Virus record (IMG/VR): IMGVR_UViG_3300046542_000168
Location: 43,408-107,407 of that record
Direction: 5' to 3' (one strand)
Origin: a virus
DNA: 64,000 nt
Shown here: piece after piece, positions 1,078 to 44,539 of the stretch
Numbering within the stretch: the first letter of the stretch is position 1
Layout of the letters: every line of letters starts with the position of its first letter
The notes under the pieces: generated by a model
Databases searched by the model: none
What the model saw: only the letters and a program-made list of their open reading frames with translations
What the model was told of the DNA's origin: nothing
Program-made: the position numbers and the translations under genes

Positions 1078-1153
1078 AGAGGATTGGCGAAGTGGGAACG
1101 CTACGGGCTTTGATCCCGTCATTGACTAGGTTCGATCCCTAGATCCTCTTCCA
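1078..1153 (+). tRNA. tRNA-Gln (UUG)
   Basis: The acceptor stem AGAGGAT/ATCCTCT pairs perfectly, the anticodon stem ACGGG/CCCGT encloses loop CTTTGAT with anticodon TTG, the T loop is TTCGATC and CCA is encoded. It is the first member of the array and reads CAA. Confidence 0.93.
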
Positions 1154-1315
1154 CATTCGAAGTATCGTTGAAAACTACGGTTGTCTACGCGCAAACGCCG
1201 GACTTCGAACTCTACATACCTGGGAACTCAAGCGCCTTGGTTTGTACAATCCACTCGACCAACCGGATGGATTCAGACGCATGGGATCGTCTCTAACTTA
1301 TCCCTACCTATTTCT

Positions 1316-1391
1316 ACCCAGGTAGCTCAACTGGCAGAGCAGCGGCCTCCAAAGCCGTTGGTTGTAGGTTCGACTCCTACCCTCGGTGCCA
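1316..1391 (+). tRNA. tRNA-Trp (CCA)
   Basis: Acceptor ACCCAGG/CCTCGGT has one C-C mismatch. The anticodon stem GCGGC/GCCGT encloses CTCCAAA (anticodon CCA), the T loop is TTCGACT and CCA is encoded. It reads UGG. Confidence 0.9.
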
Positions 1392-1395
1392 CTTC

Positions 1396-1471
1396 GCAGA
1401 TATAGATTAAACGGATAAATCACGCGGCTTTCAACCGCACGTTCCGAGTTCGATGCTCGGTATCTGCACCA
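1396..1471 (+). tRNA. tRNA-Glu (UUC)
   Basis: Acceptor GCAGATA/TATCTGC is perfect and the D stem GATT/AATC is visible. The anticodon loop CTTTCAA gives TTC, and the terminal CCA is encoded. The last anticodon-stem pair is a C-A mismatch. Confidence 0.9.
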
Positions 1472-1493
1472 TTATTCAAGTTAAGGAAGACTC

Positions 1494-1637
1494 ATGGCTC
1501 AGAAGCCTTACGATGCAACTAAAGAACACACCCCGTTCGACCGTACCCGTAAAACAGATGGGAAAGGTCGTCACCCTAATAAGGGGTTGAGTTCGAAGCA
1601 CCCGGTGTCGGGCAAGAAGAACCGATACTTCGAATGA
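1494..1637 (+). CDS. 47-residue basic protein inside the tRNA array
   Basis: ATG at 1494 follows the ribosome site AAGGAAGA at the right distance. The 47 residues are strongly basic (many Lys, Arg and His) and largely disordered, beginning MAQKPYDATKEH and ending KKNRYFE. It sits between tRNA-Glu and the next folded spacer on the same strand, so it is probably translated from the tRNA transcript. Size and charge suggest nucleic-acid or ribosome contact. No family is recognised. Confidence 0.65.
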   Translation: MAQKPYDATKEHTPFDRTRKTDGKGRHPNKGLSSKHPVSGKKNRYFE

Positions 1638-1642
1638 TTCCA

Positions 1643-1736
1643 CCAGGGAGGCTATAGGGGTCTTATGACCGCTCCCCGCTGCTGAGGCTACTCAGTTGTC
1701 CCGATGACAGGCAACAGCGTCCTACCCGCTCCCTGG
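1643..1736 (+). ncRNA. closed-stem folded RNA between tRNAs
   Basis: An 8-bp perfect stem (CCAGGGAG 1643-1650 with CTCCCTGG 1729-1736) encloses smaller hairpins such as GGTC-TTAT-GACC, CTGA-TCAG and TGTC-GACA, giving a multi-branched 94-nt fold. It lacks a T loop or an obvious anticodon, so it is not a normal tRNA. It may be a tRNA relic, a processing element or a small RNA. Confidence 0.35.
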
Positions 1737-1744
1737 AGCGCTGA

Positions 1745-1763
1745 GGCACTAGAGAATAGTGCC
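1745..1763 (+). other. 7-bp hairpin before tRNA-Phe
   Basis: GGCACTA/TAGTGCC with loop GAGAA ends 10 bases before tRNA-Phe. No U-run follows, so a processing signal is more likely than a terminator. Confidence 0.35.
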
Positions 1764-1773
1764 GTTTATATTC

Positions 1774-1849
1774 GCATTCTAAGCTAACCCGGTGAAAGCG
1801 ACGGATTGAAAATCCGTAGAGACTGGTTCGACTCCAGTAGATTGCACCA
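1774..1849 (+). tRNA. tRNA-Phe (GAA)
   Basis: Acceptor GCATTCT/AGATTGC has one T-T mismatch. The anticodon stem ACGGA/TCCGT is perfect with loop TTGAAAA (GAA), the T loop is TTCGACT and CCA is encoded. Confidence 0.92.
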
Positions 1850-1850
1850 T

Positions 1851-1924
1851 AACAATGAGAACCAGGGTACTGGTTGAGTAGCAGCCCATGGAGCCGCCAA
1901 AGGCGCTGGGCCCGGTTCATTGTT
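1851..1924 (+). ncRNA. 74-nt closed-stem folded RNA between tRNAs
   Basis: AACAATGA (1851-1858) pairs perfectly with TCATTGTT (1917-1924). Inside are ACCAG/CTGGT and GCCC/GGGC arms, the second carrying a GCCGCC/GGCGC extension, so a three-way junction is possible. The 74-nt length matches a tRNA, but no T loop or anticodon arm is present. It begins two bases after tRNA-Phe. Confidence 0.35.
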
Positions 1925-1991
1925 GTACTGTACGCACTGGCCAGCGTACTTCGCGTTTACGGTAGAGGTCGCAAACCGCTTTATTTTCCCT

Positions 1992-2068
1992 ACTGGTATA
2001 GTTCAACTGGAAAGAGCATCCGCCTTCTAAGTGGTTAGTTGGGGGTTCGAATCCCTCTACCAGTGCCA
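1992..2068 (+). tRNA. tRNA-Arg (UCU)
   Basis: Acceptor ACTGGTA/TACCAGT is perfect. The anticodon loop CTTCTAA gives TCT, reading AGA (and AGG by wobble), codons that are rare in GC-rich pseudomonads. The T loop is TTCGAAT and CCA is encoded. Confidence 0.92.
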
Positions 2069-2116
2069 GATATGCAAGAAAGTTGTAGAAAGTTCGAACT
2101 ATTTTCATATTGCCTA

Positions 2117-2145
2117 TTGACAAAATAGAAAAGTGTGAGAATATT
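2117..2145 (+). promoter_or_regulatory. promoter inside the tRNA array
   Basis: TTGACA (2117-2122), a 17-bp spacer and AATATT (2140-2145) form a good sigma70 promoter about 55 bp upstream of tRNA-Asp. It would boost transcription of the downstream tRNAs. Confidence 0.55.
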
Positions 2146-2203
2146 CACGGACTCGAAGTTACCTTCGACTGAATTACCCCTCTTGTATGTAGTTCCCCTC
2201 TTA

Positions 2204-2279
2204 GCCTAATGATTCCTCTGGGAAGGAAGACGCACTGTCGATGCGTTCGCTGCGGTTTCGAATACCGTATTAGGCGCCA
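2204..2279 (+). tRNA. tRNA-Asp (GUC)
   Basis: Acceptor GCCTAAT/ATTAGGC and anticodon stem ACGCA/TGCGT are perfect. Loop CTGTCGA gives anticodon GTC, and CCA is encoded. Confidence 0.93.
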
Positions 2280-2284
2280 TATTT

Positions 2285-2362
2285 GCCCTTGTAGCTCTTA
2301 ACTGGCAGAGCAGCCGCCTTGTAAGCGGACGGTTGGGAGTTCGAATCTCTCCTGGGGCACCA
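2285..2362 (+). tRNA. tRNA-Thr (UGU)
   Basis: Acceptor GCCCTTG/CTGGGGC contains a G-U pair and a T-T mismatch. Anticodon loop CTTGTAA gives TGT, the T loop is TTCGAAT and CCA is encoded. Confidence 0.87.
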
Positions 2363-2369
2363 TATTCTT

Positions 2370-2445
2370 TCCGGTATAGCTCAGTTGGTAGAGCAGCGGC
2401 CCGATAAGCCGTTTGTCACTAGTTCAAGTCTAGTTACCGGGACCA
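2370..2445 (+). tRNA. tRNA-Ile (GAU)
   Basis: Acceptor TCCGGTA/TACCGGG pairs with one T-G. The canonical D arm TAGCTCAGTTGGTAGAGC is present, loop CCGATAA gives anticodon GAT, and CCA is encoded. Confidence 0.93.
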
Positions 2446-2450
2446 TCTAT

Positions 2451-2524
2451 GGGCTGTAAGAATTACGACAGTTCGCCTGCCTTGCACGCAGGAAGCCAGG
2501 GTTTGACTCCCTGACGGTCCACCA
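2451..2524 (+). tRNA. tRNA-Ala (UGC)
   Basis: Acceptor GGGCTGT/ACGGTCC pairs with two wobbles. Anticodon stem CCTGC/GCAGG is perfect with loop CTTGCAC (TGC). The T loop is TTTGACT and CCA is encoded. Confidence 0.92.
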
Positions 2525-2592
2525 TTACAAATGCAGAGACTTACGGCTTATGTCGTTACAAGTCAAACCGGGGATATGCACCCCTTTACAAT

Positions 2593-2674
2593 AGCGAGAG
2601 AGTTAAGACTGTCTGGTGATGTCGCCCGGCTCATAACCGGCTGCTTTGTGGTTCGATTCCACCTCTCGCCACCA
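2593..2674 (+). tRNA. tRNA-Met (CAU), unusually long D region
   Basis: The anticodon loop CTCATAA gives CAT. The T arm GTGG-TTCGATT-CCAC and encoded CCA are clear, and GCGAGA/TCTCGC pairs in the acceptor after an A-C mismatch at the first position. The distance from the 5' end to the anticodon is about five bases longer than normal, so the D arm is atypical. The anticodon stem lacks the three G-C pairs of initiator tRNA, so elongator Met is more likely; a lysidine-modified Ile tRNA is not excluded. Confidence 0.75.
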
Positions 2675-2680
2675 TATTTG

Positions 2681-2766
2681 AAGAGAGAACCTGGGTTCAA
2701 GTCCCTTGTCTCGGAAGGCCCGCCTGTATAACAGGGCTGATAGCTTAGTGGATTAAAGCGCTCTTC
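2681..2766 (+). other. tRNA-like arms in non-standard order, relic or permuted tRNA
   Basis: GAAGAG (2680-2685) can pair with CTCTTC (2761-2766). Between them lie a T-arm-like segment (GGGTTCAAGTCCC), a GGCCC/GGGCT pairing and a D-arm-like GCTT-AAGC hairpin. That is the order expected for a circularly permuted tRNA, but the T stem is only three pairs and the acceptor match only five. A decayed pair of tRNA fragments explains it as well. Confidence 0.25.
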
Positions 2767-2838
2767 ATCTCACACACTGGGTTGCTCCCCATGTGAACAC
2801 TCGCCACAGAGTGTATAAATAAGTGTGGCACGATCAAT

Positions 2839-2915
2839 TGGACATAAGCTAACTAGGCGGAAGCGGGTGGCTGTTAACCACCAGATGCTAGGTTCGAATC
2901 CTAGATGTCCAGCCA
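2839..2915 (+). tRNA. tRNA-Asn (GUU)
   Basis: Acceptor TGGACAT/ATGTCCA and anticodon stem GGTGG/CCACC are perfect. Loop CTGTTAA gives GTT, the T loop is TTCGAAT and CCA is encoded. Confidence 0.94.
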
Positions 2916-3031
2916 ACTTTGCGACGTGAGGTTTTATGCCCACGATCCTTCCAGGGCTTACCTGGGAGAGATGAGAGTCGCGCATTAAGCTGTCTGCTAG
3001 GCCCGGACGTTAAATGGGCGACAAGATCAAT

Positions 3032-3107
3032 ACCCCGATGGCTGATCGTCTTAGGCAATCGCCTGCAAAGCGATATCAGGCTGGTTAGATTCCAGCTCGG
3101 GGTTCCA
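3032..3107 (+). tRNA. tRNA-Cys (GCA)
   Basis: Acceptor ACCCCGA/TCGGGGT and anticodon stem ATCGC/GCGAT are perfect. Loop CTGCAAA gives GCA. The T loop reads TTAGATT instead of TTCGANT. CCA is encoded. Confidence 0.92.
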
Positions 3108-3115
3108 GTTATAAA

Positions 3116-3201
3116 GGTCGTTGTAGAGTCAGATGGCTACTGACAGGGCGCTGTAAACGCCCCGCTTCTGCTAGAGGTTCAATTCCATCCTTCGACCACC
3201 A
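3116..3201 (+). tRNA. tRNA-Tyr (GUA)
   Basis: A class II tRNA with a long variable arm, as expected for bacterial Tyr. Anticodon stem GGGCG/CGCCC is perfect with loop CTGTAAA (GTA), and D stem GTCA/TGAC is clear. The acceptor pairs five of seven positions, so it is somewhat degenerate. CCA is encoded. Confidence 0.85.
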
Positions 3202-3287
3202 ATTTGCCGTATAGGTGCCATACCCGAAAGCATTCGTGCAGTGAGGGCAGGTTATCGTCCCCTTCCCAGGGCGGCAGACGCGAGAAT

Positions 3288-3364
3288 GAGACGTTGGCCG
3301 ACCGGCGCTAGGCAACAGGCTTTTAACCTGTATTAATCTGGTTCGATTCCAGAGCGTTTCACCA
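3288..3364 (+). tRNA. tRNA-Lys (UUU)
   Basis: Acceptor GAGACGT/GCGTTTC pairs with two wobbles. Anticodon stem ACAGG/CCTGT is perfect with loop CTTTTAA (TTT), the T loop is TTCGATT and CCA is encoded. Confidence 0.92.
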
Positions 3365-3369
3365 ACAAT

Positions 3370-3437
3370 GGAGGGTCCGCTGGGACGGGACTACTGAAGA
3401 AGTAGAGAGTGTGGTTAGAATCCACTACCCTTCGCCT
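3370..3437 (+). pseudogene. degenerate tRNA-like sequence
   Basis: Acceptor GGAGGGT/ACCCTTC, a T arm GTGG-TTAGAAT-CCAC and an anticodon-like CTAC-TGAAGAA-GTAG hairpin are present in tRNA order. The element is only 68 nt, position 33 is G rather than T, the D arm is compressed and the tail is CCT instead of CCA. It looks like a decaying tRNA gene; the original specificity is uncertain. Confidence 0.5.
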
Positions 3438-3442
3438 TATAT

Positions 3443-3530
3443 AGTAGATTGACCGAGAGGCCGATGGTAGGGGATTGCTAATCCCTACGGTGTAACAGCC
3501 GCACAGGTTCGAATCCTGTATCTACTGCCA
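3443..3530 (+). tRNA. tRNA-Ser (GCU)
   Basis: A class II tRNA. Acceptor AGTAGAT/ATCTACT is perfect, anticodon loop TTGCTAA gives GCT, the variable arm is long, the T loop is TTCGAAT and CCA is encoded. It reads AGC and AGU. Confidence 0.93.
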
Positions 3531-3547
3531 TATTCCAGGCAAACAAA

Positions 3548-3568
3548 AGCCGCCTTAGTAGGGCGGCT
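3548..3568 (+). terminator. hairpin after tRNA-Ser
   Basis: AGCCGCC/GGCGGCT with a 7-nt loop, but only CTTG follows, so termination is probably weak. It may act as an attenuator before the oxygenase-like gene. Confidence 0.4.
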
Positions 3569-3635
3569 CTTGACAACGAACTCTACCGTTCATTGTAGGT
3601 GGGATGCACTGGCGTACTCCGAGGGGAATCCTATC

Positions 3636-3941
3636 ATGTGGACGAATGGCCGACAAGGCACCGGGTACGCGAAACTAACGCTCCTAGCCACCTCCAGGCT
3701 CGACTGTCACGTTTTACGATATATGCCTGGGGATAGCATTCCATCTCACACAGATAAGCTTGTGGACGGCAGGAAGCACTTCAGGATGAACATCCGGCTA
3801 GCCGGTGAAGACACTTTCAAGTGCTGCAAGGTATTGTTTAGATTCTGGCGGGTTACGATCTTCCGACCGGACCTCTATGAGCACTCAGTACCGGCAGTAA
3901 AGAGAAAACGATACATGCTCAGCATCGGCTGGGTAATATGA
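3636..3941 (+). CDS. small 2OG-Fe(II) dioxygenase-like protein
   Basis: The ATG at 3636 is preferred over an upstream TTG because GAGGGGAA lies ten bases before it. The 101-residue product carries His38-x-Asp40, a distal His83 and following Arg residues (90-92). This is the H-x-D...H...R layout of 2-oxoglutarate- and iron-dependent dioxygenases, within a compact double-stranded beta-helix length. N-terminal GRQGTGYAKL and the R-x-N-I-R-L strand fit small phage members of the family. The substrate is unknown. Its position between tRNA genes raises RNA or translation-factor hydroxylation as an inference only. Confidence 0.6.
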   Translation: MWTNGRQGTGYAKLTLLATSRLDCHVLRYMPGDSIPSHTDKLVDGRKHFRMNIRLAGEDTFKCCKVLFRFWRVTIFRPDLYEHSVPAVKRKRYMLSIGWVI

Positions 3942-3946
3942 TACAA

Positions 3947-4031
<85 letters not shown>

Positions 4032-4083
4032 TTTACAACGATTGAAGGTTGAGCCTATCGCTCCCTCTCGTTACAACGAATAC

Positions 4084-4171
4084 GGCGTGTAGGCTCCATG
4101 GGGAGATGCGGTCTTGAAAACCGTCCCATTGCAGAGATGTGGTGAGGGTTCGATTCCTTTATGCGCCTCCA
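4084..4171 (+). tRNA. tRNA-Ser (UGA)
   Basis: A class II tRNA. Acceptor GGCGTGT/ATGCGCC pairs with wobbles, anticodon loop CTTGAAA gives TGA, the variable arm is long, the T loop is TTCGATT and CCA is encoded. It is the second Ser tRNA of the array and covers UCN codons. Confidence 0.92.
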
Positions 4172-4270
4172 ACTTAACGCACGAGACTGGAGGCTGAAAT
4201 GCCCGTGCGATCCGGCCGATACGGCTCCCAGCCTTGAGCGGGTATGAAAGGATAATGCCTGTAACGCACA

Positions 4271-4296
4271 AACAAAAACACCGCCTTTCGGCGGTG
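4271..4296 (-). terminator. terminator of the leftward mvaT-like gene
   Basis: Read leftward, CACCGCC-GAAA-GGCGGTG is followed by TTTTTGTTTG, a textbook intrinsic terminator 20 bp after the stop codon of the gene at 4317-4706. Confidence 0.8.
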
Positions 4297-4316
4297 CTCA
4301 GGAACGCAAGTGAAGA

Positions 4317-4706
4317 TCAGCCCAGGATAGTTACCCAGCTCTCTACGGACTCATTACCCCACTTCGCTTTCCACTCTTTCAGAGTCTTGTGGTTGCCACC
4401 TTTCGTCTCGATGACTTCGCCGTTGTGCGGGTTTTTGTACTGCTTAACGTGACGCTGACGACGAGTAACGGAAGAGGATTTATCAGAAGCCTGCTTCGAA
4501 GACTTACCGCCGTGGCGACCGTCTGGGTCCATAATACCCAGGATGTCTTTCAACGACTTGCTATATTCGCCCATCAAGCTACGCAGCTTACCTTCGAATT
4601 CCAGTTCTTCTTGCAATTTACCGTCCGACTGGAGGGTAGCCATGCGGGCCTGGAGTTCTTTAATTGCGGCTTCTGTAGCGCGGTATTCAGCAATAACTGA
4701 CGACAT
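4317..4706 (-). CDS. mvaT: MvaT-family H-NS-like DNA-binding protein
   Basis: A 129-residue protein closely matching the chromosomal MvaT/MvaU layout of Pseudomonas. It has an N-terminal coiled-coil oligomerisation domain (EYRATEAAIKELQ), a flexible basic linker around 60-85, and a C-terminal DNA-binding domain with KQYKNPHNGEVIETKGGNHK and a W-K-A-K-W-G motif. MvaT silences AT-rich DNA. A phage copy could protect phage DNA, interfere with host silencing or tune phage genes. The start at 4706 is preferred to the ATG 15 bases upstream because GGGGAAC then serves as ribosome site. It is the only leftward gene in the tRNA array. Confidence 0.92.
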   Translation of the reverse strand: MSSVIAEYRATEAAIKELQARMATLQSDGKLQEELEFEGKLRSLMGEYSKSLKDILGIMDPDGRHGGKSSKQASDKSSSVTRRQRHVKQYKNPHNGEVIETKGGNHKTLKEWKAKWGNESVESWVTILG

Positions 4707-4800
4707 ATTTGCGTTCCCCATGGGATGTCTGTGTGATGTGTCAGAGGATATACACGGCTTATTATTATGTAAAGCCCTTAGTGTAAAAGTTTTTTAAAAT

Positions 4801-4877
4801 CTCGCTGTAGCTCAGATCGGTAGAGCGCCTGCTTTGGGAGCAGGAGGCCGGGGGTTCGATGCCCTCCAGCGTGACCA
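4801..4877 (+). tRNA. tRNA-Pro (UGG)
   Basis: Acceptor CTCGCTG/CAGCGTG has one mismatch. Anticodon stem CCTGC/GCAGG encloses TTTGGGA (TGG), the D arm TAGCTCAGATCGGTAGAGC is canonical and CCA is encoded. Confidence 0.92.
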
Positions 4878-4892
4878 TATTAAGATGTAGTC

Positions 4893-4967
4893 GTGGGGCC
4901 GTGCTGCCTGGATGTAGCCATCAGGTTGTGACCCTGTTGTCGGAGTTCGAATCTCCACCTCACCCCA
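4893..4967 (+). tRNA. tRNA-His (GUG)
   Basis: Anticodon loop TTGTGAC gives GTG and the discriminator is C73, the His hallmark. Acceptor GTGGGGC/ACCTCAC has one wobble and one mismatch. The base before G1 is C rather than the encoded G-1 usual in bacteria, so G-1 may have to be retained or added differently. Confidence 0.85.
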
Positions 4968-4972
4968 ATTTA

Positions 4973-5049
4973 GCGTGCTTCGTATAGCCAGGTTATTACC
5001 TCCGGCTTCCACCCGGATGACAACAGTTCGAATCTGTTAGCCCGCACCA
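4973..5049 (+). tRNA. tRNA-Gly (UCC)
   Basis: Acceptor GCGTGCT/AGCCCGC has one T-C mismatch. Anticodon stem TCCGG/CCGGA encloses CTTCCAC (TCC), the T loop is TTCGAAT and CCA is encoded. Confidence 0.9.
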
Positions 5050-5053
5050 ATTC

Positions 5054-5127
5054 GCTCGATTAGCTCAATGGGAGAGCAGAGCCCTTACAAGGCTTTTACG
5101 GTGGTTCGATTCCATCATTGAGCACCA
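5054..5127 (+). tRNA. tRNA-Val (UAC)
   Basis: Acceptor GCTCGAT/ATTGAGC pairs with one wobble. Anticodon loop CTTACAA gives TAC, the D arm TAGCTCAATGGGAGAGC is canonical and CCA is encoded. It is the last tRNA of the array. Confidence 0.94.
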
Positions 5128-16766: not shown

Positions 16767-17064
16767 ATACGACAGAGCCCCAGACGCTAACAAGATGGCG
16801 GCCTGGGGCTTTTCTATGGGCGACTTGCTAGAAGAAGAGATTGAACTATGGCCAGACTGTTGGCCTGCATTCCTTATCTTCGAAGCAATGTCCACTCAAT
16901 GGAGAGTCGGTATGGGCGGTGCTATCGGTCTTGACTATCAGGCCCTTCCCGTCGTTGTGAAGTACCTCGAAGTCGATGAACAAGATATGCCCCTGGCGTT
17001 TAATGACATTCGCGTAATGGAAGCGGAAGCTCTGAAGAAGATGGCCGAGGGGAGAGATAAGTAA
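16744..17064 (+). CDS. tail assembly chaperone T domain (frameshift extension)
   Basis: In the -1 frame the peptide continues LRSAARALYDRAPDANKMAA and then contains ELWPDCWPAFLIFEAMSTQW, the DUF1799/gpT-type signature. Joined to the G protein it gives a GT product of about 231 residues. There is no good ribosome site before the internal ATG at 16795, so expression by frameshifting is favoured. Confidence 0.82.
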   Translation, partial: LRSAARALYDRAPDANKMAAWGFSMGDLLEEEIELWPDCWPAFLIFEAMSTQWRVGMGGAIGLDYQALPVVVKYLEVDEQDMPLAFNDIRVMEAEALKKMAEGRDK

Positions 17065-17078
17065 GACTTGGAGACACA

Positions 17079-20000
17079 ATGACATATATTGCTAATTTGC
17101 AAATCAAGGTTGACTCCACGGAAGTTGAATCAGCCACAGATAAACTTCATGAACTGATCCAGGCTTCTAAGGGCCTGGGCAACAGTCCTCTCTCGAAACC
17201 ACTTCCCCCTGTTAAGCCGCCTCCACAGCCGAAGCAACCTAAGAGTAGTCCAGATGATAAGTCTGCTGATAAGCTCCTGGCTCAGATTGATAAACAGACC
17301 GGTAGCCTACAGAAACTGACTAAGCAGCAGTCCATGCTTAATCAGGCCCGTGATGCTGGTACTGTATCTGATGATAGCTTTGCTAAATACAATCAGATTA
17401 TCGAGACAAACAAGAAGGCAGTACTCGACCGGGGTAATGTTGTAGAGCAAGCCAGCAAGAAGGAAATCGCTGCTGAGCAAGCCCGCCTCGATGCGTGGTA
17501 CAAAAGTGCTGATGGACGTAAAACGGTTGACTCAGAGTATCTAGACTCACTTGCAAAAGGCTCCCAGGCTCGCCAGAAGAGAGTTGCGGAAGAAGATGCC
17601 AGCGAGCGTCAGCGCCTTGATAGCTGGTTCGCTAACGCGGACAAACAAAAGAAGGCCGAAGCTAAGGATATTGAAGACCGGCATTCAGCTCTTGCAACAG
17701 CTTCGAAAGATCGAATTAAACAAGAAGCGGCTGCTCAAAAAGCCCGTGATGCTATTGACAAAGCGAAAAAGGATAGTACACTTGCGGCATCTAAAGCAGA
17801 TGATGATGCAGCCGCAAAAGCTGAACTAGCCTCGAAGAAACGTCAGAAGGCGTTGGACGATGAGGCTAAAGGTTTACAGAACCTTCTAGCAGCAATTGAC
17901 CCTGTTACAAAAGAGCGTCAACGCCTCGCTAAGCTAGAAGCTGAGTTAGAGAAAAATTACAGTAGCGGTAAAATCACTGAGCAACAACGCGGCCAATACC
18001 AGTCGGTAATTGACGAAGCTCGGCAGAAGACTGACCGCTATAAAAACTCCCTAGGCCGAACTGCCCTGACTGCTAAGCAGCTTCAGATGGCACAAGCTGG
18101 CCTCCCCGCTCAGTTTACTGACATTGCTGTTTCCCTTCAGGGTGGACAAGCGCCGCTAACTGTCTTCCTGCAACAGGGCGGGCAGATTAAGGACATGTTC
18201 GGTGGAACAGTCCCTGCAATTAAGGGTGTTACATCGGCATTTGTCGGTCTGATTAATCCTATTACTATCCTCGGCGCCACGGTCCTAGCACTTGGCGGTA
18301 TCTGGTATGACGCTGAGCGCCGGATGTCTGCTCTCAATGCGGCCATCTATAAAGGCAATGAATTGGTCGGAACTTCTAAGTTCGGGCTTGAGGTAATTGC
18401 TGAAGGTGCAACTGTTGCTGGCAACTCTGTTGCTGAAGCTCAAGAGGCCATCACGGCCCTGGCTGCAACTGGTGAAGTATCCTCTAGCCGTCTCGCTAAC
18501 TTCGGTAAGGCCGCTCAGGCTATCGCTGTAACGTCTGGTAAAGACATTAGTGCAGTAGCTGAAGAGATGGCAACCCTGGGCGACACGGCCACAGAGAAGG
18601 CTGAGAAGCTTAGTGAGAAGTACGCGATTGTAACTGCTGAACAGTATGAAACAATCCGTGCCCTGGAGAAGAAAGGCGAAACTGAAGAGGCAATGGACGT
18701 ACTTAGTTCAAGCCTCGCAGGAAACGCTCAGGAACGCTTGCAGCGCTACCGTGACTCCCTCTCCGACCTCGAAAGAGATTGGATGGATGTTAAGACCGCG
18801 ATCAGCAATGCCTATGGCGCAGTTCGTGCGGAACTCTTCCCCGACCTCAACGATGAGATTACCCAACTTCAGCGTATTATCAAGACGCGGAAAGAAGGTG
18901 GTGTAACTGGCACTATCTCTAGCTTCCTCGGCTTCGGTGATAATTCAGACGAAGCTCTGAGCCAGCAACTACAGTCGCTAATTAATCGCAGAGACTTTAA
19001 GAACAAGTATGATGCGGAAGTTGCTCGCCGCAATCAGGCCAACAAAGAAGTAGTTGAGTCTGAGAAAAAGCTATTCAAGGATCTTGAGAAAGCTGGCAAG
19101 ACCGTCAAGAAGAACGAATACCTTGAAGACCTCAATAAGGAATTCGATTCTCTTGTTGAGAATGCTAAGACTCTTAAAACTATCCCTAAACTGCTGGAAG
19201 GCGTCACATGGACGACAGAAGGTGGATACAAGGGTGGTGCCTACGATACCCTGAAAGCTGAAGCTGAGCGTAAGTTTAAAGAGAAACAGCCTAAAACTCC
19301 TAAGTCCGCTATCCTAGATAACACTGACGCTAACGAGTTCCAGAATCAAGTTAACGAAGTTAAAGCCCGCTATAAGTCGATGAATGAGGACATCATTCAG
19401 GCACAGAACGCTGGCACAATTTCAATGGCTGCTGGTGTAACTAAGCGTAAAGCTCTACTGGAGCAAGAAGCTACCCAGGTTAAAGATGCCTATGAGAAGC
19501 AGATTGCTTCCCTTGAGGCATTGAAGGGCAGTAAGAACATCTCTGCCAATCAGGTTATCTCGATTGATCGTCAGATTGCTGATGCTCGCTCGAAGATGGT
19601 TGTTGCCCAGGAAGAGTCTGAGAAGCAACTGAAGAAGCTTGCCGGTGATGAAGAGACTCGCCTTAAAAAGCAGAGTCAAGCAATCTCCGCATACGCTGAA
19701 AACCTCAATCAGATGGTGAAGAACCTCGAAGTTGCTGGCCAGCGTCAACGTGCTGCTCTATCAATGAGCAGTGGGCAGGCCGGACTTCAGGACCAACTTA
19801 GCTCGGAAGATGACCGTTACAACGAAGAGCAACGTACTCTTACCCTGCAACTGGGTGAGGCTGGACGCGACCAGACTGAAGTAATTGCTAACTTGCGGGC
19901 TTCTGCTGCCGCTCACACTGCTATGAAAAAGCAGATCGTTACCAACTACGAAGAGATGAAAGCCGCCCAGGCTGATTGGGGAGCCGGTGTTAGTAGCGCC

Positions 20001-37131: not shown

Positions 37132-37389
37132 ATGGCCATTCTATCCCCTGATAGTAAAAGACTACACAAGAGCAGCACAGTCGTCCTTAGTGTCCTGCTC
37201 TTCGTGATTACATTGCTGGAAATCCTCCAGCCCCAGGTAGAGATACTGGCGCCTCTTGTGCTGCCTCCAGGGACTTACCCTTATGTCTCTGCTGGACTGA
37301 GTATTGCAATCGGAGTAGGCCGCTATGTAAGCCAAGAGTGCCTACGCATTAAAAAGGAAGAGGACGCTTCAGATGACGGCGCTGTTTAA
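37132..37389 (+). CDS. holin-like membrane protein
   Basis: An 85-residue protein with a perfect AAGGAGG ribosome site. Two hydrophobic segments (about 16-34 and 50-66) are joined by a Pro-rich turn, and the C-terminal tail is charged: class II holin size and shape. Position between endolysin and spanins supports the role. It overlaps Rz by 17 bases. Confidence 0.75.
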   Translation: MAILSPDSKRLHKSSTVVLSVLLFVITLLEILQPQVEILAPLVLPPGTYPYVSAGLSIAIGVGRYVSQECLRIKKEEDASDDGAV

Positions 37390-37888
37390 TTTGTTTAGTT
37401 CCCTGCCGCTTACAACGGTATGGGGCAAAGTTAAAGTCGGCCTATTGGCCGGTGCTGTTGCCTTCATGGTATGGCAAGGATGGCAAATGACCGTCCTCCA
37501 GAAGGATGTAACTAAACTAGAGACGGTACAGAGTAGCCTCCAGGCCCAGGTTCAACAGATGTCTGTTGACTATTCAGTCCTCCGAGATAACTACAAGAAT
37601 AACGCTAAGACTAGCGAACAGTATGTGCTGTCCCTTAACCAGCTAAATGGTAAGTCAACAGAGCTGGAGAAAACCTTTACAGCCCTGGACAAGAAGGGCG
37701 TTGAGACGCAGCCAACGCAAACAGGTACTACCCCGAGGGTCTACCATGAAACAAGCTCTACACAAGCTCACACGAGCCCTGTCCGGGGTAATGGTGGTGG
37801 GGTTAGTAGCTCTGATGCTGAGTGGCGCCAGTTGCTCGACTCTACCTTCTGCTCCACCTTCCCCACCGACAACAAATGTTCTAAGTGA
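37373..37888 (+). CDS. Rz: inner-membrane spanin (Rz-like)
   Basis: A 171-residue protein with one N-terminal membrane segment (about 20-38) and a long periplasmic coiled coil (45-115). It ends in a Ser/Thr-rich region with two cysteines. It would pair with the outer-membrane spanin encoded in another frame inside its 3' end to fuse the membranes in the last step of lysis. Confidence 0.82.
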   Translation: MTALFNLFSSLPLTTVWGKVKVGLLAGAVAFMVWQGWQMTVLQKDVTKLETVQSSLQAQVQQMSVDYSVLRDNYKNNAKTSEQYVLSLNQLNGKSTELEKTFTALDKKGVETQPTQTGTTPRVYHETSSTQAHTSPVRGNGGGVSSSDAEWRQLLDSTFCSTFPTDNKCSK

Positions 37889-38075
37889 CATTCAAGTCCC
37901 ACACTATCTTCTAGTGCCTTGCCAATATGAAATGGTCAACTGGGACGAAGAACGCGGCCTAGAGAAAGCATACACAAGAAACTTGCTTATCGGCAAAGGA
38001 TGTAACGATAAGATCGAGGCGTTTAGAGACTGGGTAGACGGTACGTTCCCTGTCGCGAAAGAAAAGAGTAAATAA
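37746..38075 (+). CDS. Rz1: outer-membrane spanin lipoprotein (Rz1-like)
   Basis: A 109-residue lipoprotein starting at ATG 37746 inside Rz in a different frame. Signal peptide with lipobox L-S-G-A-S-C (Cys30), then Pro-rich PSAPPSPPT, the Rz1 hallmark. Unlike lambda Rz1 it extends well past the Rz stop, by about 62 codons. Overlap with Rz is 143 bp. Confidence 0.85.
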   Translation: MKQALHKLTRALSGVMVVGLVALMLSGASCSTLPSAPPSPPTTNVLSDIQVPHYLLVPCQYEMVNWDEERGLEKAYTRNLLIGKGCNDKIEAFRDWVDGTFPVAKEKSK

Positions 38076-38076
38076 G

Positions 38077-38370
38077 ATGGCCGAAAATGGAGAGATGAGT
38101 ACAGTAGGTAAAGCCCTGCTGGACTTCAGTAGTAAGTGGATGCTCCCTTTTGTCCTGGCCTTTGTATCCTGGCAATACACCGAGATATCGAAGCTAGAAG
38201 ATCGGGTGGGTGCCCTTCAACGTGAAGCAGTTACGCATTCGGAACTGCAACTTACAGAAAGCAGGATGGTCGGCCTGCTGGACCTTAGAATTAAAAACCT
38301 CGCAGATCAACAGAAGGTTACTAACGAGTATCTTCGTATTCTGATCGACCAAAAAGCAAGCCGCCCGTAA
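38077..38370 (+). CDS. small membrane protein with coiled coil
   Basis: A 97-residue protein with one membrane segment (about 19-35) and a helical, charged remainder with leucine periodicity. It starts two bases after the Rz1 stop and ends inside the terminator hairpin. It may be a second holin or a pinholin regulator; no direct evidence. Confidence 0.65.
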   Translation: MAENGEMSTVGKALLDFSSKWMLPFVLAFVSWQYTEISKLEDRVGALQREAVTHSELQLTESRMVGLLDLRIKNLADQQKVTNEYLRILIDQKASRP

Positions 38371-38382
38371 GGGCGGCTTTTT
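38360..38382 (+). terminator. terminator of the lysis cassette
   Basis: GCCGCCC-GTAA-GGGCGGC then TTTTTATTT. The stop codon lies in the loop. It faces the leftward operon that ends at 38400. Confidence 0.88.
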
Positions 38383-38399: not shown

Positions 38400-38624
38400 T
38401 TACATCCACGTCTCAACAAGTTGTGGCACGTCTGATTCGTCCCGTAGGAAGCATATCAACCCTGGAGGTACATCCTTACGAATATCTTCTAACGTCTTAG
38501 CAAACTTCGTGACTGGTGTGATGATTAGCCTGCCGTTCACAACGAGCCACAGCCTCATTACATAGTGCTCAGGGTAGTCTTGAGGCCGCTCATAGATCAC
38601 CCAGTTCTTCATATGCTCGCTCAT
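38400..38624 (-). CDS. unknown protein at the end of the leftward operon
   Basis: A 74-residue protein starting by ATGA overlap with the HicA-like gene. Pattern: V-I-Y-E-R-P-Q-D-Y-P-E-H-Y-V-M-R-L-W, then L-E-D-I-R-K-x-x-P-P-G-L-I-C and a terminal V-E-T-W. It is a soluble alpha/beta protein. The family is seen in proteobacteria and phages without function. As the partner of a HicA-like toxin it is an antitoxin candidate, although it does not look like HicB. Confidence 0.75.
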   Translation of the reverse strand: MSEHMKNWVIYERPQDYPEHYVMRLWLVVNGRLIITPVTKFAKTLEDIRKDVPPGLICFLRDESDVPQLVETWM

Positions 38625-38872
38625 GATGGTTGCCTGAGTTGCTTATCTTCAGCTTCTCGCAATGCCCGCTTCAACTTCGCCCTAGTGTTCATGTACGCCC
38701 GGTGATCGCTTGGCGTCATCGATGACGAAACTAGTGGAGTATTAGGGCGACGAAACCTTATGTGGGAACCCCTGGTCCGCTCGCATTCAAATCCTAATTC
38801 CTTTGCCCATTCAACTAAGTCGCGCAATTCAGTACCAGCACGAACTACCTTACCAGTGTTACCCTTGTGCAT
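38621..38872 (-). CDS. HicA-like toxin (mRNA interferase fold)
   Basis: An 83-residue protein. L-V-E-W-A-K-E-L-G-F-E-C-E-R-T, the key R-G-S-H-I-R-F-R with His in the HicA active-site position, and a late helix of basic residues match the double-stranded RNA-binding HicA/YcfA fold. HicA toxins cut mRNA. The usual HicB antitoxin with its partial RNase H fold is absent. It overlaps the upstream membrane protein gene by 14 bases. Confidence 0.72.
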   Translation of the reverse strand: MHKGNTGKVVRAGTELRDLVEWAKELGFECERTRGSHIRFRRPNTPLVSSSMTPSDHRAYMNTRAKLKRALREAEDKQLRQPS

Positions 38873-39170
38873 TGGAGTCCTCCCGGTTGTAAGCCAGCAT
38901 TTCCTGATATTGGGCGTTCATATTGCTATACAAGCGAACATGCCGATATAACTTGTACATCATGTAGACAACAAATACTGCGTATGCACCGAACAGTCCG
39001 CTGGATGGCCACTGCTCGTCTAAGTAATTGGTGACTGCTAGATAAGCGAACACTACTAGCCCCACCACCATTGCGTACATCAGCCGCTTACCCCGGCGAG
39101 TCCACTGCAACGGAATACGCTTCTCGATATATGCCCCTGTCAAGGGACTTACGATCTTCATGCGGCTCAT
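38859..39170 (-). CDS. small membrane protein of the leftward operon
   Basis: A 103-residue protein with two membrane segments (about 30-50 and 60-77) and charged termini. Between them is N-Y-L-D-E-Q-W, the motif shared with two or three other proteins of this operon. Start overlaps the upstream stop as ATGA. Confidence 0.75.
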   Translation of the reverse strand: MSRMKIVSPLTGAYIEKRIPLQWTRRGKRLMYAMVVGLVVFAYLAVTNYLDEQWPSSGLFGAYAVFVVYMMYKLYRHVRLYSNMNAQYQEMLAYNREDSNAQG

Positions 39171-39598
39171 TTTCGCTCCAGTTTGATATCTTCGTCCTGG
39201 CCTTCAGGGAAGTGCTCAGCAAAGAAGGCAGCTAGCTTCGTGTCAAGCTCAACCGCTTCCTTGAACGTTTTCCGCTGCCTGTAGACAAGCCAGACGTTCA
39301 AGACCGCCAATGCTAGCCAGTATAGCATAGTTAAGTGCTTGCCCTGACCATAGTATTCATATGTAAGAACTGCGCCTACTACCACTATAGCCGTATTAGC
39401 ACAACTTGCTAACTGGATTGCTTTGTACTTACCACCATGAATACGCACTGCACGAATGAGGTCGAAGACAGCGAAACCCGCCATGAATCCCCATATAACG
39501 GCAAAGGGGGTTTCGCCTGTGCAAACGAAGTAGCCCAGGAACAGAACCGATATGCATAACCACGCTGACAAGAATACAACTGATCTAATTACTTTCAT
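39167..39598 (-). CDS. four-span membrane protein of the leftward operon
   Basis: A 143-residue protein with hydrophobic segments about 5-25, 30-48, 66-84 and 90-106 and a charged C-terminal tail (120-143). Y-E-Y-Y-G-Q-G lies in the place of the aromatic-x-x-D-[GE]-Q-aromatic motif of its neighbours. Coupled by ATGA to the upstream gene. Confidence 0.75.
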   Translation of the reverse strand: MKVIRSVVFLSAWLCISVLFLGYFVCTGETPFAVIWGFMAGFAVFDLIRAVRIHGGKYKAIQLASCANTAIVVVGAVLTYEYYGQGKHLTMLYWLALAVLNVWLVYRQRKTFKEAVELDTKLAAFFAEHFPEGQDEDIKLERK

Positions 39599-39945
39599 TT
39601 CTGTTCTGCCTTAAGGAGCAATCTAGTCTTGTTCGCATACTTGGTAGCAACTAGCCAGACCACACAGACCACAGTTTGCCCCATAGCATTTATCCACTGC
39701 TCATCGAAAACGTATTCGATAGCACTGGCACAATGTACGCCTGAAATCAGGAAGAACGTCGGGACAACCCGCCACGGCTGCAAACCAATCTTTATTAACA
39801 TCACGGCAAGGTGGAAGAAAAGGAAGCTCGATGCTCCATTAAAAGCAACCTGGGAGTAGTTGTCAGTAGCAACAGATACTATCGTAGTTAATCCATTGCC
39901 AACGGCGACCAACAGTAATGCCAGGGTAATGATTGTCTTGCTCAT
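39595..39945 (-). CDS. four-span membrane protein of the leftward operon
   Basis: A 116-residue protein starting at ATG 39945, chosen because it forms an ATGA overlap like every neighbour. Four hydrophobic stretches; the motif Y-V-F-D-E-Q-W-I lies between spans 3 and 4. Basic C terminus. Confidence 0.78.
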   Translation of the reverse strand: MSKTIITLALLLVAVGNGLTTIVSVATDNYSQVAFNGASSFLFFHLAVMLIKIGLQPWRVVPTFFLISGVHCASAIEYVFDEQWINAMGQTVVCVVWLVATKYANKTRLLLKAEQK

Positions 39946-40259
39946 CTCTTGTTCACCCACAGAGCGACACCCAGGGATGCTATAAACGCCCCGCCATTAG
40001 TTGCAGCGAATAAATACTGTCCGTCAAGTGCGAAGTCTACGACGTTCATAAAATAAACAGCAGCGAGGGCTAGAAACAGCTTTACAATTGATTTCAATGA
40101 TGCCTCATTTTTCTTGAGCTTCTGAGCGACTAGAATCCACAGTACCACAAGGGCTGCTGCGTATGATGCACGGGAGTAGTCCCCTCCCCCGACGAAGATG
40201 CCGGAAGTGAGAGCCGCCCAGGCACCCAGGGCGTAGCAGCTAATGACAACGCCGTTCAT
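39942..40259 (-). CDS. four-span membrane protein of the leftward operon
   Basis: A 105-residue protein starting at ATG 40259 by ATGA overlap (a GTG further upstream gives 131 residues but ignores the coupled gene). Four spans, motif F-A-L-D-G-Q-Y between spans 3 and 4, basic loop K-L-K-K-N after span 2. Paralogous in layout to the next two genes. Confidence 0.78.
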   Translation of the reverse strand: MNGVVISCYALGAWAALTSGIFVGGGDYSRASYAAALVVLWILVAQKLKKNEASLKSIVKLFLALAAVYFMNVVDFALDGQYLFAATNGGAFIASLGVALWVNKR

Positions 40260-40414
40260 TCTGGCTTCACAGGCTTCACGCTCGTCTTGTAGCAAGCCGT
40301 GTTGTATAGAGCCAGCAGGGCCCAGAACGCGCACCACATCTCCCTACCTACCCCCAGGGTCCACAGAGACATACCCGCACAGAACACAGCCGCCCCTACG
40401 CAATACCACCTCAC
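40256..40414 (-). CDS. 52-residue membrane protein of the leftward operon
   Basis: GTG start at 40414 overlapping the stop of the upstream gene (GTGA), stop overlapping the downstream start (ATGA). Two short hydrophobic, Trp/Cys-rich segments (about 3-20 and 27-42). Ribosome site AGGTGAGAGG. It resembles one half of the four-span proteins downstream. Confidence 0.62.
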   Translation of the reverse strand: MRWYCVGAAVFCAGMSLWTLGVGREMWCAFWALLALYNTACYKTSVKPVKPE

Positions 40415-40584
40415 CCTCTCACCTGCTTAGAAGTGGTATACGCAAGCACGAACTCCAGGGCAGCAACAACAGCCATGAGAAGACCCACCCAGTAATTACC
40501 CCTTGAACAGTGGATAGCAGCAGTGATACCGAGGGCCACACCGACCCCGAAGAAAACCTTACCTGATGCACTTAACTGTCCCAC
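40411..40584 (-). CDS. 57-residue membrane protein, first gene of the leftward operon
   Basis: GTG start at 40584 with AGGAAGG seven bases upstream. Two hydrophobic segments (about 9-25 and 31-50) joined by C-S-R-G-N-Y-W. Short tail K-Q-V-R-G. First of eight coupled genes; the promoter must lie in 40585-40740 on the reverse strand, where no strong match is obvious. Confidence 0.65.
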   Translation of the reverse strand: MGQLSASGKVFFGVGVALGITAAIHCSRGNYWVGLLMAVVAALEFVLAYTTSKQVRG

Positions 40585-40703
40585 TTGCTGCCTTCCTGAT
40601 CCATTTTTTAGTGTCAGAGATTCTACCTTACCCGGCCACTGGTCACCAGCAAGATCAGCCTTCAGGCGATGAACCGTGAGCCTCCAAGGCGCCAGGGCTG
40701 GAC

Positions 40704-40784: not shown

Positions 40785-40930
40785 CATCGAGAGGAAAACA
40801 CCACGCTCGATACACAGATTCGCTACACAAGATCCCCGCCAGGGAGCTACCACCAAGAGCAACCGGCCCTGGGATCACACAATACGATTTTCTAGCCTGA
40901 TGGAGGTACTAACCATCAGGCTTTGTTGCG
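40785..40930 (+). ncRNA. candidate small RNA with three hairpins
   Basis: After the promoter at 40751 come ATCGAG/CTCGAT (40786-40811), then CCAGGG/CCCTGG (40839-40872), which competes with GATCCC/GGGATC (40831-40876), then a 10-bp terminator-like stem AGCCTGATGG/CCATCAGGCT (40894-40922) followed by TTGTTG. No ribosome site or good ORF is present. It could be a free small RNA or a regulated leader. Confidence 0.5.
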
Positions 40931-41008
40931 TCCAGAGTTTTTCAACCCAGTTTTAACCCGATAGCCGAGGTCCGCTTGCAGTGGGAACTTGAGTGGATAA
41001 GTACGCAC

Positions 41009-43234: not shown

Positions 43235-44539
43235 ATGAACTTTATTAAGAAAGCAGGTATCGGTATTGCAGCCGGTGCCTTGGTACTGATCGGCACATTC
43301 AATAGTGTATTCGTATACAACGAAGCCGGTTATCAAACTCACATTCGTACAATCACGGGTGAAGAGAAAGTAGTTACCGAAGTTGGTTATGCCACTAAGT
43401 GGTTCGGTAAGGCCACGCCCTGGAAGCAGGCACAAACCCTCCAGTTCTCCATCGTTAAAGAAGGTGAAACAAGCCGTGAGGTTGATGACGGCGTAGGGAT
43501 CGACAACTACCGCGTTACCTTCCTGGGCAACGTTGATGGTGTTGTGGAAGCTTCCACACGATTCCGTATGCCCCAGGGCGAACAGTTCCTGAAGATTGCT
43601 CGTGAGTATCGCACTCCAGACAACTTCATGCAGACTGCTGTATTGCCAGCAGTGAAAGAGACTCTGCAAACTACAGCGTCCCTGATGACTGCCGATGAAT
43701 ACTTCGCTGGTAGCCGCTCTGAGTTTAGTTCGAACTTCGATGACCAACTTCGAAATGGCCAGTTCGCAGTTAAACGTAAGGAAGTTCAACAAGTAATTGA
43801 AACCAATCGTAGCGAAGGTGACAAGCTTGTTTCCGGTGCTGGTATTGACGGTGAACAGAAACGTACAGCGTTCGTAACTGAGAAAGAAACTGACGACAAG
43901 GGCCGTGAAGTTCGCAAGTCCCAGGTCTTCGTTGGTATGGGTGTAGACGTTGTAGAGGCTCGTGTCCCTAACATCCTGCCGAACCCTCAGTTCCTGGCTC
44001 GCATGGTCAAGGTGCAATCGGCCCAGGCGGATCTGGTAGTCGCTCGTGCGGATCGTCTGAAAGAGGAAGAGGCGAAGCTGCTGGCCATCGCTCGTGGTCA
44101 ACGCAACGTCGAAGAGAAGCGCCAAGAAACCTTGCGTAATCAGGTCGAGCAGACCACCAACGCAGAAACCACCAAGCTCCTGGCGATCACCGCTGCTAAG
44201 CAGGCTGAAGAGTCGGCAGCCATCTCTAAGCGTACCTCCGTCGAGCTGCTGGCAAAGGCTGAGATTGACGCCAAGGCGACCAAGACCACTGCTGATGCTG
44301 AGGCGTATGCGAAAAAGGCTCTGATCCTCGCTGACGGCGCTCTGACGCAGAAACTGGCTACCCTGGAGAACATCAACAGCGTGTGGGCCCAGGCTGCTGC
44401 TAACGCCCCTGTACCGAGCGTGATGATGGGTAATGGTGGTGGTCAAGGTTCTAGCCGTCAGAGTGAGATTGGTGAACTAATGTCGATCATGGCTGCAAAG
44501 GCTGCGAAAGACTTGTCGGTTGATCTTTCCACTAAGTAA
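43235..44539 (+). CDS. SPFH/band-7 (prohibitin-like) membrane protein
   Basis: A 434-residue protein: N-terminal membrane anchor (7-25), SPFH domain to about 250 (F-R-M-P-Q-G-E-Q-F, V-L-P-A-V-K-E-T-L) and a long Ala/Glu/Lys coiled coil (270-390), then a Gly-rich tail. SPFH proteins form large membrane rings or cages. Several big phages carry one, with proposed roles in membrane integrity, lysis inhibition or host takeover. Codon use is highly biased to common codons, implying strong expression. Confidence 0.88.
   Translation: MNFIKKAGIGIAAGALVLIGTFNSVFVYNEAGYQTHIRTITGEEKVVTEVGYATKWFGKATPWKQAQTLQFSIVKEGETSREVDDGVGIDNYRVTFLGNVDGVVEASTRFRMPQGEQFLKIAREYRTPDNFMQTAVLPAVKETLQTTASLMTADEYFAGSRSEFSSNFDDQLRNGQFAVKRKEVQQVIETNRSEGDKLVSGAGIDGEQKRTAFVTEKETDDKGREVRKSQVFVGMGVDVVEARVPNILPNPQFLARMVKVQSAQADLVVARADRLKEEEAKLLAIARGQRNVEEKRQETLRNQVEQTTNAETTKLLAITAAKQAEESAAISKRTSVELLAKAEIDAKATKTTADAEAYAKKALILADGALTQKLATLENINSVWAQAAANAPVPSVMMGNGGGQGSSRQSEIGELMSIMAAKAAKDLSVDLSTK

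Follow-up and report, generated by a model that had tools for sequence, protein, structure and literature searches.

Eight leftward genes that exactly fill positions 38400-40584 of the window form a coupled operon encoding a series of small predicted membrane proteins, a solo HicA-like protein and one further soluble protein, and comparison with a related genome reveals gene turnover, a change in gene order and a duplication (g3/g4). The window is the whole stretch of DNA that was analysed (64,000 nucleotides, bases 43408-107407 of the 107,407-base IMG/VR record IMGVR_UViG_3300046542_000168). The operon may be a lineage-restricted, fast-evolving host-interaction cassette, most likely serving superinfection exclusion, a reading that is put forward tentatively; superinfection exclusion or envelope takeover would be the likeliest uses of the cassette. 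The membrane proteins represent new orphan families, whereas their setting, the phage accessory operon, is a known one.

Sequence origin and host

The portal protein of the record is 49-50% identical to those of the Pseudomonas phages phiPMW (Plaisancevirus) and SYP. By this marker the nearest named phages are phiPMW, SYP and M1 (43-50% identity), and the portal of PAK_P3-type phages is 39% identical. The virus is accordingly placed as a large phage, kin of phiPMW and SYP, and its host is probably Pseudomonas, because of the portal kinship to phiPMW, SYP and PAK_P3-type phages. At the DNA level, neither the cassette nor 25 kb of structural-gene sequence gave any match in the phage collection.

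Organization of the operon

The eight genes (g1 to g8, Table 1) are joined by 4-nt overlaps at six of the seven junctions (GTGA at g1/g2; ATGA at g2/g3, g3/g4, g4/g5, g5/g6 and g7/g8) and by a 14-nt overlap at g6/g7, which confirms the coupled eight-gene leftward operon of the original prediction. Its predicted position after the lysis genes was also upheld. Ribosome-binding sites were found just 5' of the starts of g1 (AGGAAGG) and g7 (GGGAGG). For g3 and g4, the ATG codons at 40259 and 39945 were taken as starts in place of the longer GTG ORFs. Membrane spans were predicted by hydropathy with a cut-off of 1.4, giving two spans for g1 and g6 and four for g3, g4 and g5; g2 has one strong span and a second that falls below the cut-off. 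The originally predicted set of six small membrane proteins is supported. With a G + C content of 0.498, the cassette matches the window as a whole (0.50), which does not suggest a recent foreign origin.

Table 1. Coordinates of the operon genes and of neighbouring features in the window
Feature	Position	Strand	Description
tRNA gene cluster	1078..5124	+	17 tRNA genes, upstream of the structural genes
Lysis operon genes	37373..38370	+	Rz-like spanin, overlapping Rz1-like gene, phrog_4172 gene
Rz1-like ORF	37647..37888		out-of-frame 242-base overlap with the Rz-like ORF, extends beyond the end of the latter
Bidirectional terminator	38358..38379	.	stem of 9 bp; separates the cassette operon from the convergent spanin operon
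g8	38400..38624	-	74 aa, soluble; kin in Microbacterium phages; not in the L005 cassette
g7	38621..38872	-	83 aa, HicA-like, GSH motif, own strong ribosome-binding site
g6	38859..39170	-	103 aa, soluble N-terminal stretch and two-span hairpin, turn EQW
g5	39167..39598	-	143 aa, four spans and charged C-terminal tail
g4	39595..39945	-	116 aa, four spans, true ATG at 39945, g3 paralogue
g3	39942..40259	-	105 aa, four spans; starts at the ATG at 40259
g2	40256..40414	-	52 aa, a strong span and a weaker one; overlaps g1 by GTGA
g1	40411..40584	-	57 aa, a single hairpin of two spans with turn GNY; starts with GTG
Candidate promoter/regulatory site	40610..40649	-	40 nt, upstream of g1, ends in GGTAGAATCTCTGACACT
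Conserved intergenic element	40869..40974	.	106 nt, perfect 9-bp stem-loop, between divergent operons
SPFH/prohibitin-like gene	43235..44539		434 aa

Comparison with related genomes

The IMG/VR contig IMGVR_UViG_3300009092_000012 (hereafter L005), whose SPFH protein is 86% identical to that of the window, carries a leftward operon of overlapping genes in the same slot and on the same strand. Orthologues were recognised for g1 (44% identity), g2 (34%), g5 (15%, weak), g6 (39%) and g7 (49%), and both g3 (23%) and g4 (30%, E 4e-12) match a single L005 protein of 107 aa. Against 400 shuffles preserving the hydrophobic pattern, the z-scores of g1 to g6 with their L005 orthologues were 14.2, 6.9, 9.2, 20.1, 5.7 and 21.4. 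Since these orthologues persist even though the cassette DNA cannot be aligned, g1, g2, g3/g4, g5, g6 and g7 are real coding sequences. In L005 the order of g5 and g6 is swapped, g3/g4 is present as a single copy, g8 is absent, and two genes are added that encode a 90-aa soluble protein and a 103-aa two-span protein.

Identity with L005 is 15-49% for the cassette proteins, against 70% (Rz-like) and 74% (Rz1-like) for the spanins, 84% for the phrog_4172 protein and 86% for SPFH. Such faster change of the membrane proteins than of the adjoining lysis genes fits a contest with the host or with rival viruses. Other genes change fast as well: the rightward accessory neighbours (49-57% identity, the nearest of them 49-54%) and the tail fibre gene (22% over part) have also diverged. 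The cassette is thus among the fastest-changing stretches, and not the sole one.

In L007 (phrog_4172 protein 68% identical), the slot holds mixed, mostly soluble genes and one g1-like protein of 51 aa (z 4.9). In the same record, two adjacent rightward ORFs at 16935-18012 have the stretch MWNPEHPYGALRLELLDF in common, and are likely a tandem duplication to judge by this shared segment. L010 has its lysis genes on the other strand, and a cassette of this kind is absent from it. In phiPMW, SYP and M1, other small genes, mostly soluble, occupy the slot. A phrog_4172-like profile was run on 12 further records and matched 11 of them (all but G020); G024 (39 kb, weak match) and G001 (which is L005) were dropped, leaving nine records of 96-107 kb. 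In the downstream stretches of these nine, four (L054, L055, L056 and L061) have an unrelated membrane family of 117-145 aa in the slot, which is also found rightward in L007. This IPSKKEMA-IIAAAGVTYNVVTSE family was located at 1377-1754 in L054, 1601-1954 in L055, 1614-1967 in L056 and 2877-3314 in L061 (positions in the oriented stretches), and at 12850-13410 in L007; Pseudomonas phage Milchi has a protein that matches it in part.

No relative (E<=0.5) was found with the g1, g3/g4 and g6 profiles in 27 portal-related records, many of them short fragments; of the three profiles, that of g3/g4 alone has a positive control, as it recovers the present record and L005. IMG/VR scans with g6 and with the g1 family returned the L005 contig as sole match, and those with the single proteins g7 and g3 returned nothing. 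No relative of g6 was found by its profile in bacterial and archaeal genome contigs (84,980 species by description), nor of g4 in 72,556 plasmids; these pattern-based scans (IMG/VR, bacterial and archaeal contigs, plasmids) are best at reaching close relatives. The slot is a variable accessory locus, since other small genes fill it in relatives, and among the records examined the membrane set occurs in two and, in part, in L007. Of the accessory exclusion or defence cassette originally proposed, the accessory and fast-evolving character therefore stands, given the divergence from L005 and the slot turnover; exclusion or defence would be its possible use.

Membrane protein families

Searches of g1-g6 gave no match at the curated cut-offs of Pfam and NCBIfam and no convincing match in PHROGs or PADLOC; in PADLOC, seven of the eight cassette proteins were unmatched at E<=0.1, g7 alone being matched. 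A tblastn search with g1, g4, g5, g6 and the L005 107-aa protein (g2 and g3 were left out of the set) found nothing at E<=1 in 50,697 phage records. The expectation that no known family would fit the membrane proteins was thus borne out by the Pfam, NCBIfam, PADLOC and PHROGs profiles, and g1, g2, g3/g4, g5 and g6 constitute five orphan membrane protein families, previously undescribed. Counter-defence, in which the membrane proteins and g7 would neutralise membrane-acting anti-phage systems of the host, accords with the fast divergence and turnover of the cassette, but the lack of a match to a known family in these four collections speaks against it, and it is judged quite unlikely.

The original prediction also held that four of the proteins arose by serial duplication and share the motif aromatic-x-x-[DY]-[GE]-Q-[WYG]. 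Duplication is supported for g3 and g4, which are paralogous (z 5.9 against pattern-preserving shuffles); g1 and g6 are linked to them by a turn signature only (see below), and g2 and g5, which lack it, fall outside. Four profile-profile comparisons (the g1 family against g3/g4 and g2, and g3/g4 against g5 and g6) were weak, all with probabilities below 5%, and the N- and C-terminal halves of the four-span proteins show no likeness beyond z 2.5. Descent of the six membrane proteins from one ancestor was thus considered and set aside as unsupported. Pairs reaching z 3 numbered 12 of 91 within the cassettes, mostly orthologue pairs, and 2 of 99 when a control protein was involved, one of the latter being a true holin pair.

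The full motif is met by g3, g4 and g5 alone, the g6 segment (NYLDEQW) beginning with N. Its core, [DY][GE]Q[WYG], does occur in four of the six window proteins, against at most two of six in 5000 hydrophobic-pattern-preserving shuffles, but in none of the six L005 cassette membrane proteins, so the exact motif is not conserved. A looser signature, [GED][DNEQ][YW], was observed at 11 of 19 hairpin turns in three genomes (6/9 in the window, 4/8 in L005, 1/2 in L007); the shuffle mean is 1.17 and none of 3000 shuffles reached 11. Among nine control membrane proteins it was seen once at a turn and once elsewhere. The signature is common to g1, g3, g4 and g6, and is lacking in g2 and g5. It is to be taken as a lead only, because it was defined after the sequences had been seen, and short interface turns could converge.

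In the window, g6 and the second hairpin of both g3 and g4 carry D-[GE]-Q-[YW], and the L005 counterparts read [GED]-D-Y. A more specific and distinctly improbable reading is that one two-span hairpin module gave rise to g1, g3, g4 and g6 by copying and diversification, and that the set could form a multi-specific membrane barrier to rival phages, coupled to a HicA-like RNase; the periplasmic turn [GED][DNEQ][YW] could be their common part, and the loops could change together within each phage genome. We know of no phage-encoded exclusion array of diversified hairpin modules, from a narrow look at the literature.

The AlphaFold2 model of g3 (three sequences) is an antiparallel four-helix bundle (pLDDT 92, pTM 0.82). 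Its fold search yielded generic helical bundles only, and neither PDB nor viral structures matched at E<=0.001. The best VIA-align hit (Z 13.1), a designed four-helix coiled coil, was rejected as lying within the stated helical-bundle noise. The model of g5 is unreliable (pLDDT 56).

The HicA-like protein and g8

The prediction of a HicA-like gene was upheld for g7, which matches PF07927 above the curated cut-off (32.1 bits against 27), the alignment covering profile positions 2-33 of 58 only; it also matches phrog_2089 (E 1.4e-12) and the PADLOC HicA-like profile (E 3.8e-7). The L005 orthologue scores 19.2 bits with PF07927, below the cut-off. The GSH-motif histidine is catalytic in HicA toxins; g7 carries RGSH and its L005 orthologue GQH. 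No relative of g7 beyond chance was found among PDB sequences. HicB (PF15919 and PF05534) was not found at E<=1 in any of the three records searched (the present one and those of L005 and L007), in which controls were recovered. An antitoxin unrelated to HicB, for example g8, may be the partner of g7.

The gene g8 had been listed as encoding an unknown protein, but it does have kin: tblastn detected relatives in 57 of the 50,697 phage records, all Microbacterium phages, with up to 43% identity. These detectable kin sit far from Pseudomonas phages. In the stretches around the HicA-like loci of Milchi and PspYZU01 and around the g8-relative locus of Megan, the membrane proteins had no match at E<=0.05.

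A further explanation would make g7 (with g8) a selfish or host-shutoff HicA module, the membrane genes being unrelated passengers. The strong Shine-Dalgarno sequence of g7 itself and the occurrence of related HicA-like genes in 21 of the 50,697 phage records (tblastn, E<=0.1) are in its favour, but the HicA-like gene is kept alongside five membrane families in both of the diverged genomes, and this explanation is given a low probability.

Flanking regions and lysis genes

The rightward lysis operon encodes endolysin-like and holin-like proteins, Rz-like and Rz1-like spanins and the phrog_4172 protein, and is separated from the convergent cassette by a terminator hairpin of which similar forms are found in L005 and L007. 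Holins and antiholins are usually, though not strictly, encoded within the lysis transcription unit. That the cassette proteins are holin- or antiholin-like and tune lysis timing is unlikely: the cassette does adjoin the spanins and holin, but it is convergent, on the opposite strand and behind a bidirectional terminator, the phage already has its own holin-like protein (37132-37389), the best holin profile for g6 (PF23778) reaches 15.4 bits where the cut-off is 32, and the flanking lysis genes are conserved where the cassette is not. This lysis-timing role would have a parallel in Girr, whose two-span N-in/C-in holin-like proteins are described as regulating lysis (PMC13056207).

Upstream of g1, the 40-nt candidate promoter element occurs once in the window and is 90% identical in L005, and the 106-nt element is 84% identical. 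These divergent intergenic elements are thus kept in L005, whereas the cassette DNA itself is not alignable. The 106-nt element matched no Rfam family at the gathering score. A sigma-70 scan gave no match above threshold for the operon, and a phage-specific promoter family was not found, the 20-nt motif occurring once in the window.

The SPFH gene, so named because it resembles genes that are annotated as band 7 in SYP and PAK_P3, lies 2.7 kb beyond the cassette in the rightward block. In PAK_P3, gp34, gp37, gp38, gp45 and gp46 are described as overexpressed early (PMC4933390). PAK_P3 is a distant relative, and this parallel is loose because its genes at the comparable place are on the other strand. 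Takeover of the host envelope, whereby small membrane proteins made early, perhaps jointly with the phage SPFH protein, would inhibit or remodel inner-membrane enzymes or transport and g7 would cut host mRNA, is a possibility that we regard with some doubt. It is consistent with an accessory slot that encodes small orphan proteins, with a strongly conserved SPFH gene nearby and with the early overexpression of the PAK_P3 genes. Against it, SPFH is conserved in L010 where the cassette is absent, so the link between the two is not tight.

Proposed function

Superinfection exclusion is tentatively preferred because the cassette proteins are 15-49% identical between the two genomes, against 70-86% for the spanins, phrog_4172 and SPFH; because g1, g4, g5, g6 and the L005 107-aa protein have no match in the 50,697 phage records, nor do the g1, g3/g4 and g6 profiles in the 27 portal-related records; because the slot holds other small genes in relatives; because the turn signature is found at 11 of 19 turns against a shuffle mean of 1.17; because g3 is modelled as a confident four-helix bundle; and because PAK_P3 genes at a comparable place are overexpressed early. 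Exclusion-protein homology was not detected for the cassette proteins in Pfam, PHROGs, NCBIfam or PADLOC.

Under superinfection exclusion, the conserved element at 40610-40649 would drive leftward transcription of the operon. Both termini of the inserted hairpin proteins would be cytoplasmic and their [GED][DNEQ][YW] turn periplasmic, and the proteins would assemble into inner-membrane complexes. Such complexes might act against a quickly changing target, most likely the entry of competing phages, and g7, a presumed RNase, could add inhibition of the host or of a rival at the RNA level.

If exclusion or takeover is true, the five orphan families would be testable phage proteins acting at the Gram-negative inner membrane. 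The diverged cassette pair (window and L005) provides natural material for swap experiments. Regardless of function, a fast-evolving membrane-protein slot is documented between conserved lysis and SPFH genes.

Comparison with known systems

The closest system is the L005 cassette, which has the same place, strand and overlapping genes and orthologues of g1, g2, g3/g4, g5, g6 and g7, and differs by its one g3/g4 copy, swapped g5/g6, added 90- and 103-aa genes and missing g8. With the HicA toxins of HicAB (PF07927), g7 shares a profile score above the curated cut-off and the GSH motif, but its match covers positions 2-33 of 58 and no HicB was found in the three records searched. HicA domains have been proposed to serve anti-phage defence, in a text whose passages on these domains do not report their pairing with membrane operons (PMC10865869).

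The mycobacteriophage Girr proteins LysF1a and LysF1b are described as small one- and two-span holin-like proteins near lysis genes (PMC13056207). Set against Girr by this description, the window cassette likewise has small proteins with one or two spans beside lysis genes, but it is convergent, on the other strand and behind a terminator.

T4 Imm, a small phage-encoded inner-membrane protein of superinfection immunity, has no counterpart of its family type among the Pfam, PHROG (E<=1) and NCBIfam (E<=0.1) matches of g1-g6. P22 SieA is described as a superinfection exclusion membrane protein (PMC10883804). Compared with Imm and SieA, the window has a six-gene membrane operon that has no sequence match to either; the likeness is that both are phage-encoded inner-membrane proteins, as is predicted for g1-g6.
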